A stretch of DNA of 46,320 bases from an uncultured Candidatus Saccharibacteria bacterium. Lineage in GTDB: Bacteria > Patescibacteriota > Saccharimonadia > Saccharimonadales > Saccharimonadaceae. Below are positions 1 through 2,303 of this stretch, piece after piece. Positions within the stretch are counted from its first letter, which is position 1, and each line of letters begins with the position of its first letter. Under the pieces are notes generated by a model, which did no database searches, had not been told where the DNA came from, and saw only the letters and a program-made list of their open reading frames with translations. Both the position numbers and the translations under genes were made by a program. The stretch is from the NCBI GenBank assembly GCA_946409745.1, contig CAMJXP010000002.1, positions 1 through 46,320 on the forward strand. The letters are read 5' to 3'.

Positions 1-1351
1 ACTTAGTTCCCTCGGATAGTTGGAATCTGATAAATTCTGTAATCTCATCCTTAGTGAAGCTCGTCTCAAACGAATCCGCCGCGATATCGAGAATCTCCGG
101 AAGCTTCAAAAGGTACTCCTTCGAGCCAGTCAGTTTTTTGATAATGCCGGATAATACTTCCTGTTGATTTTCACCACGATGTTTATCGCCACGATAGTAT
201 TTTTTACGTTCACGAGCAAAACGCAGCGCACATTCACCATCCACAGTTTGTGGGCCATACGGGTAATAACATTTCTTAGTTGTTCCTGCTTTTGGATCAG
301 CATTAAGTGTCATCTCCGTGTCCGAGAATATTTCAATTCCATCGAGCTGATCCACCACCTTAATCACAGTTTGGAAACTCACCTTCACCGTGCGATCGAT
401 TTTAATGCCAAGGAAATCTTCAATCGTTGTCTTACTCATATTCACACCATAAAGCCCAGCGTGTGTGAGTTTGTCCTTTAGTCCGGTCGTACCATGGAGT
501 TGCACATACGTGTCGCGTGGAATTGTCGCAAGGAGTATCTTTCCCTTTGCTGGATTCACCACTGCGAGGATATTCACATCCGAGCGTGCCGTCGCGTCAT
601 CAATTCCAATTCGTGAATCACTACCGGAAATATAAATAATAAATGGCTCTTTCGTTACTTCCACCGGAGTCGTCTCCGCTTGTTCTTTGTCATAGGTGAT
701 CTTGTAGTTAAAGGCTACCTTATATTTATCCGTAATGGTTTCCACGGCTTCGGTCAGCGCGTTAAAACGCTCCGCTTCCATCACACTGGCAGTCGAAAGA
801 TTCTTATCAAGAGTACTAAGCAAAGTATTAGTATCATCATAATAATCAATCATGATGTCACCAGTATTTTTCCTTAACTCTTCGCTCGCCAACGTCGCCC
901 GCGTATCTGCACGGAGAAACCCAACACTCTTACCGGCAAGCTCACTCGCTTCGTCGATATCACTCGCTACCGGCACTACCACACTATACCATTTCGATTC
1001 AGTAGTCTTAGTAGTAATACGGCTAAAGAAATTATTTAGTGAGCCAGAATATCTCATCGCAAAGAGCGAAAGGCTAATCGTGACGATAGAAAGGATAGTC
1101 GCGAGCACCTTGGTAATAGTTTTTGGTAACTTTTTCGTAAAGACGAGTTTATAAGAACAAAAGGCCAGGATAGCAAGAAGCACAGCACCAGCGGCAATAA
1201 TAATATAAGCTGGCAAAATCTGCATCTTGATCAAAGACACAACGAGAAGCATCGACGTGATGAGCTCACCCAGCATCAAAAAGGCAAAGACCAATTTTGG
1301 TGGCTTGATGAATTCTAGACGGCTTCTACTTTTTTTATTATTCTTCGGCAT
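1..1351 (-). CDS. LytR-CpsA-Psr (LCP) family protein, C-terminus cut by the window edge
   Basis: Reverse-strand translation from ATG at 1351 (MPKNNKKSRSRLEFIKPPKLVFAFLM...) gives several TM segments, then the LCP core (IYISGSDSRIGIDDATARSDVNILAVVNPAKGKILLATIPRDTYVQLHG... HAGLYG...FLGIKIDRTVKVSF...ALRFARERKKY). Missing from the ORF track because no stop lies in the window. Confidence 0.9.
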   Translation of the reverse strand, partial: MPKNNKKSRSRLEFIKPPKLVFAFLMLGELITSMLLVVSLIKMQILPAYIIIAAGAVLLAILAFCSYKLVFTKKLPKTITKVLATILSIVTISLSLFAMRYSGSLNNFFSRITTKTTESKWYSVVVPVASDIDEASELAGKSVGFLRADTRATLASEELRKNTGDIMIDYYDDTNTLLSTLDKNLSTASVMEAERFNALTEAVETITDKYKVAFNYKITYDKEQAETTPVEVTKEPFIIYISGSDSRIGIDDATARSDVNILAVVNPAKGKILLATIPRDTYVQLHGTTGLKDKLTHAGLYGVNMSKTTIEDFLGIKIDRTVKVSFQTVIKVVDQLDGIEIFSDTEMTLNADPKAGTTKKCYYPYGPQTVDGECALRFARERKKYYRGDKHRGENQQEVLSGIIKKLTGSKEYLLKLPEILDIAADSFETSFTKDEITEFIRFQLSEGTK

Positions 1352-1442
1352 CCCTTCTCCCGATGCCCACCACATATATTATATATAATATAACATATTT
1401 TTCATATAATTGCAATCTATTTACAGATCACAAAAGGTTTGT

Positions 1443-1448
1443 TATAAT
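1443..1448 (+). promoter_or_regulatory. Promoter of orphan sRNA candidate (TTTACA at 1420-1425, 17 bp, TG-extended TATAAT)
   Basis: TTTACA-N17-TATAAT with TGT before the -10; no plus-strand CDS downstream. Confidence 0.6.
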
Positions 1449-1454
1449 AATCCC

Positions 1455-1521
1455 ATCGATAGGAGTCTAGGACTTCCTATCACTATGCTGGTGAGATTAG
1501 GTTCCTAACCTAATCTTTTTT
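1455..1521 (+). ncRNA. Candidate ~67-nt small RNA with intrinsic terminator
   Basis: Predicted TSS near 1455; hairpin gatagga...tcctatc, then a 10-bp terminator stem AGATTAGGTT-CCT-AACCTAATCT followed by TTTTT. Confidence 0.55.
1494..1521 (+). terminator. Intrinsic terminator of sRNA candidate
   Basis: Perfect 10-bp inverted repeat, 3-nt loop, T-run only on the + side. Confidence 0.75.
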
Positions 1522-1766: not shown

Positions 1767-2255
1767 TTAAAACAACGATCTAAAGTAAGCGAGTAGCTTC
1801 AGACGCTTGGTAGCCGCCACTTCTGCTGGCGTATCGCCACTATTGAGTTTTGCGCGAAGCATCGTAGAAGAAACCTTCTTGGTATACGGGAAGTAAACCA
1901 CATCCACACCGTATTTTTTTAATTCAGCTTCGCATTTAGAAAAGAGTTCAGAACCTTTCCAGTCGTCACCCACAAACATCGCATCAAATTTATACTTATG
2001 ATAGGCTGCAATTTTATCCTTATTGACTTGAGGTACAACCTTATCTACATACCTACAACCAAGCACAACTTCGCAACGATCTTCAAACGGAATGATTGGA
2101 GTTTTATTTTTCGTCTTTTGGACGAGTTCATCAGTTGAAACACCGACAATAAGATAATCGCATTGCTCTTTAGCACGGCGCAATAAATTAAGATGTCCTA
2201 CATGGAACATGTCATAAACACCGGTAGTGTATCCAACTCTATACTTTTTACTCAT
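1767..2255 (-). CDS. Cytidylyltransferase, glycerol-3-phosphate cytidylyltransferase (TagD)-like
   Basis: YRVGYTTGVYDMFHVGHLNLLRRAKEQCDYLIVGVSTDEL contains the HxGH nucleotidyltransferase motif; likely start MSKKYR at 2255 rather than ORF start 2294. Confidence 0.85.
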   Translation of the reverse strand: MSKKYRVGYTTGVYDMFHVGHLNLLRRAKEQCDYLIVGVSTDELVQKTKNKTPIIPFEDRCEVVLGCRYVDKVVPQVNKDKIAAYHKYKFDAMFVGDDWKGSELFSKCEAELKKYGVDVVYFPYTKKVSSTMLRAKLNSGDTPAEVAATKRLKLLAYFRSLF

Positions 2256-2303
2256 ATTACCCATTATTTTACCACTAGATTGCATAATTGTCAATTTTAT
2301 TAC

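Follow-up and report, generated by a model that had tools for sequence, protein, structure and literature searches.

Exploring the window, i.e. the whole stretch of 46,320 nucleotides analysed from an uncultured Candidatus Saccharibacteria bacterium, we found two short, convergent putative transcription units between the LCP gene (2-1375, minus strand) and the next large gene, which encodes a cytidylyltransferase (1767-2294, minus strand) and faces the plus-strand unit. A sequence-only reading of this DNA had proposed the plus-strand unit as a small RNA (sRNA) with a strong promoter, a hairpin and a perfect 10-bp terminator with a T-run, and this part of the proposal was borne out. The consensus scan places an extended sigma-70 promoter at 1420-1448 of the plus strand (TTTACA at 1420-1425, a 17-nt spacer, TG, and TATAAT at 1443-1448; 11 of 12 matches). 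The -10 element is kept at homologues: at all 59 paired homologues 5 or 6 of the six positions are identical to TATAAT, compared with 31% of shuffles. The sRNA (1455-1521; start inferred, covariance-model match 1450-1521) would be about 67-70 nt long with its 3' end at the T-run ending at 1521; as the reading had noted, it is followed by no plus-strand gene. Its predicted 69-nt fold (-23.3 kcal/mol vs -13.9 ± 2.6 in shuffles, z -3.6) consists of the hairpin drawn there, GATAGGA-GTCTAGGACT-TCCTATC (1458-1481, covarying helix 1, loop GTCTAGGACT), a linker ATGCTGGT (1485-1492) and an intrinsic terminator (1493-1521, covarying helix 2). The terminator, an 11-bp stem at 1493-1517 with a T-run to 1521, is the sole terminator-like site on the two strands scanned (0.2 expected in shuffles). 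On the minus strand, ATGAAA-16-TATAAT at 1378-1405 resembles a promoter that would serve the divergent LCP gene; it lies 15 nt from the sRNA -35.

Scoring of the sRNA helices, carried out after the pairs had been named on the alignment, showed that 20 of 20 pairs co-vary with both sides changing (0.482 vs 0.233 ± 0.018), so that the compensatory changes sought in homologues are present; on the raw alignment, where a one-column shift puts the stems out of line, RNAalifold returned no structure. No Rfam family matched at the gathering score, in line with the earlier impression that the RNA resembles no recognised family, and a permissive E-value yielded one chance match (Plasmodium) far below the cut-off. 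Two copies, G000:C25 (L157:1001-1148) and G135:C4, similar to each other in layout and sequence, are exceptions to the rule of an independent sRNA promoter: the sRNA directly follows a tRNA gene, starting at the 3' end of tRNA-Glu (TTC in G000:C25, where a promoter of its own was not recognised), and may therefore be a tRNA trailer.

The sRNA is not the orphan it had been taken for. A convergent minus-strand mini-gene, overlooked in the sequence-only reading, has the sRNA as its cis-antisense partner; it consists of a 22-codon ORF (1578-1510; MQIGLIILNIGRRKQVKPKKKD) with its own leader and promoter. The ORF stops within the stem of the sRNA terminator, and the sRNA T-run provides the codons for the lysines in the C-terminal KPKKKD of the peptide. 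The 7-codon plus-strand ORF MLVRLGS, earlier suggested to make the sRNA a leader-peptide or dual-function RNA, is present, but its ATG is missing in nearly all homologues and the idea fails for want of conservation. In the minus-strand frame, pN/pS among 124 close pairs was 0.33, compared with values of 0.69 and 1.70 for the other frames, indicating that the peptide is under purifying selection and very probably translated. Homologous peptides (e.g. MQIGLIILNIGRRKQVKPKKKD, MTIQINLLCIIFPNRKRRSKKS, MSIKFSFWRIRITVKLSLRRGSRRKKSN and MMTIRVSIWHIRITLNVRLRRSRKKIRR) are 19-31 residues long (mean 25) and carry a net charge of +1 to +10 (mean +6). Their 12 N-terminal residues have a mean hydropathy of +1.3, the hydrophobic part of ~9-12 residues being short for a membrane-spanning toxin. 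Five representatives gave no Pfam match above cut-off and no NCBIfam match. In two cassettes (G140:C6 and G142:C38; L246, L249) the peptide MKVEICLIKLIFQRKRKVSRK is kept while the leader is not recognisable.

Alignment across homologues places the promoter of the peptide gene at 1736-1708 of the minus strand (TTGCAG at 1736-1731 and a weak -10, TAGTTT, at 1713-1708), too weak for the consensus scan that found the sRNA promoter. A conserved stretch, GCCTAGGCTTA ... AGAGGTGAAAACACTTATG, lies 60-130 nt upstream of several such promoters (L042, L043, L038, L131, L136, L194). The mRNA leader (1700-1579; covariance-model R2 match 1577-1700, E 7.5e-15) contains the Shine-Dalgarno (SD) sequence AAGGAG at 1590-1585, seen in the sequence and in the alignment. 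Analysis of the mRNA revealed four co-varying elements: a helix masking the SD, a rival 5' stem (P2), a pairing of the 5' and 3' ends, and a pairing of a leader hexamer with the loop of the 3' terminator. The SD-masking helix (GGUGAC/GUUGCC, immediately 5' of the SD; in the window GGGCTC at 1635-1630 with GAGTCC at 1600-1595) has 97.6% of its cells paired and a covariation of 0.955 vs 0.389 in shuffles. Its 5' strand can alternatively pair upstream with UUUAGUGGGC to form P2, which in the window joins TTAGTGGGTC (1683-1674) to GGGGCTCATTAA (1636-1625), agrees with the predicted fold and has a covariation of 0.270 vs 0.194 in shuffles. The two helices are mutually exclusive, which suggests a built-in switch.

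Opposite the sRNA 5' hairpin, the mRNA strand of most homologues has a stem-loop followed by T-rich DNA, e.g. AGAGAAGTT(CCTAG)AGCTTCTCTTTTTATG. The 3' end of the mRNA is therefore most probably located at this stem-loop, immediately at the sRNA promoter, and the whole sRNA would be antisense to the mRNA 3' UTR. The corresponding terminator of the window copy is weak, lacks a U-run and is not called by the terminator scan, so the mRNA end is uncertain here; the minus-strand transcript would be ~250 nt for a cationic peptide of 22 residues, wholly overlapped in its 3' UTR by the sRNA.

The mRNA 5' end, GGGUUG, has its pairing partner, CAACCC, in the 3' linker. The window version of this pairing, GUGUUGGU with ACCAGCAU, agrees with the predicted fold; the 5' element is GTGTTGGT (1700-1693) and its partner ACCAGCAT is the mRNA side of the sRNA linker. 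G187 has GUGUUGU with ACAACAC instead. Similarly, the leader hexamer UCUAGG (TCTAGG at 1614-1609) pairs with CCUAGA in the 3' loop, and a change in one is accompanied by a change in the other (CCUAGC/GCUAGG, GCUAGA/UCUAGC, UCCAUG/CAUGGA, UCCAGA/UCUGGA and GCUAAG/CUUAGC). In permutation controls, which use no tree and thus ignore shared ancestry, the end pairing scored 14.08 vs 11.02 ± 0.57 in 21 variants (0 of 5000 permutations), and the mean shared length of hexamer and loop at 35 variant loci was 5.77 vs 4.33 ± 0.16 for mismatched loci (0 of 2000). The sRNA itself carries the same hexamer (TCTAGG at 1466-1471 of the plus strand, opposite the loop CCTAGA) and a GGUUG-type element: being antisense to the 3' UTR, it bears both leader elements and could thereby displace both contacts. 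A direct block of the SD by the sRNA loop was also considered and rejected, for although UCUAGGACU and AGUCCUGGA match in the window copy, this match is not kept in variants G159 and G007, unlike that between leader and 3' loop.

A first DNA search of 100 relatives turned up another copy within the genome of the window itself (C32, 73% identity) and fragments in four relatives, three of which have the convergent mini-gene downstream and one (G026) the sRNA alone. Peptide profiles extended this to 36 loci with two kinds of peptide. Covariance models followed (E-values from such home-made models are rough): the sRNA model (R1) matched 80 of the 174 genomes of the genus, with up to eight copies each, and the leader model (R2) found 117 leaders in 70 of them. 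None was found in the 155 other genera of an order-wide sample (393 genomes, 156 genera). When all genome and viral collections were scanned for the peptide motif, 70 and 11 matches were obtained, respectively; those from Saccharibacteria appear to be loci already known and the remainder are probably chance. Weak peptide matches in G094, G202, G197, G009 (C4) and G006 (C1) were rejected, having neither leader nor sRNA, and an identical pair in G152 is probably a single locus assembled twice. Several cassettes (L033, L034, L241, L243) sit just behind genes ending in YWSST...RCVA-like repeats that resemble FISUMP-type surface proteins.

The sRNA model detected a convergent sRNA at 100 of the 117 leaders, nearly always 47-73 nt downstream, and the other 17 have by eye the same terminator, linker and loop hairpin wherever the sequence suffices, three loci (G159:C42, G054:C14, G176:C42) being cut by contig ends. 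A peptide gene without the sRNA was thus not seen at any leader with sufficient flanking sequence. The reverse does occur: 36 of 128 confident sRNAs have no leader match, several of these proving on inspection to have divergent leaders or intact ORFs. Among 23 no-leader loci read fully, at least 15 lack both the start codon and the leader while the sRNA promoter is intact, and the -10 match is 5.39 of 6 at sRNA-only loci vs 5.47 at paired ones. In C32 of this genome (G000), the locus of G187:C22 is found without promoter, leader and ORF start and with an intact sRNA; in another copy (G196:C3:66807) the start ATG is changed to ATA. Loss of the peptide with retention of the RNA is as predicted by selection against a toxic product, although the solitary sRNAs could be due in part to better detectability by the sRNA model.

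Taken together, the convergent antisense layout, the ORF under selection, the helices of the leader, the two 5'-3' complementarities and a loss that affects the peptide side alone make it likely that this is a type I toxin-antitoxin-like cassette in which the plus-strand RNA serves as antitoxin. What is expected of such a system is found at the sequence level: coding selection on a small peptide gene, an RNA complementary to its mRNA by position at paired loci, a strong independent promoter for that RNA (apart from the two tRNA-linked copies), and solitary antitoxins in place of solitary toxins. We propose that the nascent leader would hide its SD in the local helix. In the completed mRNA, the 5' end would then contact the 3' UTR and the internal leader hexamer the 3' loop, so that the molecule takes on a closed, poorly translated form. 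An abundant sRNA, complementary to the whole 3' UTR, would displace both contacts, and the resulting duplex of ~70 bp would then be cut by RNase III, the gene for which is present in this genome. Should sRNA synthesis stop, the more stable mRNA would be translated and the peptide would damage the cell, probably at the membrane.

Other explanations account for less of these data. The peptide might instead be a cationic antimicrobial or a signal directed at neighbouring cells or the host bacterium, silenced by antisense RNA and no poison to its producer. This would suit the mean charge, the short amphipathic N-terminal halves and the several sequence families, and Saccharibacteria live on other bacteria. 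We nevertheless consider it unlikely, as an export signal or processing site is not apparent by eye in such short peptides and the loss is one-sided with the RNA repressor kept, as expected if the peptide harms the cell that makes it. The copy number per genome, and the similarity of same-genome copies over ~190-420 bp, which stops roughly at the two promoters and gives way to unrelated flanks, could also reflect a harmless selfish or mobile repeat of ~300 bp with two RNAs that regulate nothing but its propagation. Amino-acid constraint on the ORF and the promoter and structure kept in RNA-only remnants argue against such a repeat, and inspection short of a systematic search recognised neither a transposase nor terminal repeats; we regard it as very improbable. 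The original proposal of an orphan trans-acting sRNA, possibly dual-function through MLVRLGS, that regulates glycan mRNAs has in its favour that a polysaccharide cluster adjoins the sRNA in the window. With a convergent gene directly opposite, the 7-codon ORF missing in most homologues, and homologous cassettes beside other genes in unrelated neighbourhoods, nothing favours glycan mRNAs as targets, and there is very little chance that this proposal is correct.

The type I-like reading applies to a candidate cassette that has well above 100 copies, dispersed through a single genus of very small, parasitic Saccharibacteria, and that is missing from the RNA and protein families we searched. In the open-access literature we found no paper on Patescibacteria, or on the candidate phyla radiation, that also deals with "type I toxin-antitoxin", and the titles and abstracts of the Saccharibacteria papers listed mention no system of this kind. 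With somewhat less confidence than in the toxin-antitoxin assignment itself, we favour the broader view that these are genus-specific, multi-copy type I-like cassettes of a candidate-phyla epibiont, in which two co-varying 5'-3' contacts would close the toxin mRNA, the antitoxin would act through its own copies of the leader elements that it displaces, and a single RNA switch would stay conserved as the peptides diversify. That up to eight cassettes are kept in genomes of 0.6-1.1 Mb bears on the role of such modules in reduced parasites. The profiles let annotators find peptides of 19-31 residues possibly missed by gene callers, and the RNA-RNA contacts are open to compensatory mutation in E. 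coli.

Among known systems, those of Bacillus subtilis (txpA/RatA, bsrG/SR4 and bsrE/SR5) consist of convergent genes. There the antitoxin and the 3' end of the toxin mRNA share an overlap of ~115-125 nt, and the mRNA is degraded by RNase III as a result; SR4 additionally refolds the ribosome-binding region (PMC8464778). The convergent 3'-end overlap and the RNase III gene are shared with the txpA/RatA type, whereas the sRNA here is ~70 nt and lies wholly inside the mRNA 3' UTR, leader elements pair with that UTR, and the peptide has 19-31 residues and no family match, compared with 59 residues and a transmembrane helix in TxpA. The par/Fst system of pAD1 (RNA I/RNA II) has convergent promoters, a short antitoxin RNA, masking of the SD and 5' end of the toxin mRNA, and a charged peptide tail (PMC7472228), all of which have counterparts in the Saccharibacteria cassette. 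A shared bidirectional terminator as in par was considered and rejected, since the shared stem has a U-run only on the sRNA strand and the mRNA of homologues ends at a different hairpin. Unlike in par, each RNA ends at its own hairpin and the RNAs do not pair via direct repeats at the translation start; nor did the five representatives match an Fst profile (Pfam, NCBIfam) or the peptides show PXXXG or a conserved Trp. Antitoxins of hok/Sok and aapA/IsoA act at the leader or 5' part of the toxin mRNA, whereas the putative antitoxin described here covers only the 3' UTR. Their toxin mRNAs form 5'-3' long-distance pairings and transient (metastable) SD-masking hairpins (PMC6733600), and it is such a long-distance interaction that covariation, permutation and predicted fold point to in our case. 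The toxin mRNA of timP/TimR has been described as adopting conformers that exclude each other, with a long-range pseudoknot disrupted by the antitoxin (PMC11228461); exclusive conformers and a long-range contact disrupted by the antitoxin are predicted here too, but timP/TimR is enterobacterial and encodes another peptide, and the contacts here link leader and terminator loop. Judged from sequence, the closest fit and best reading is therefore a txpA/RatA-like geometry combined with a hok/AapA-like 5'-3' closure of the toxin mRNA, serving a peptide family outside Pfam and NCBIfam.
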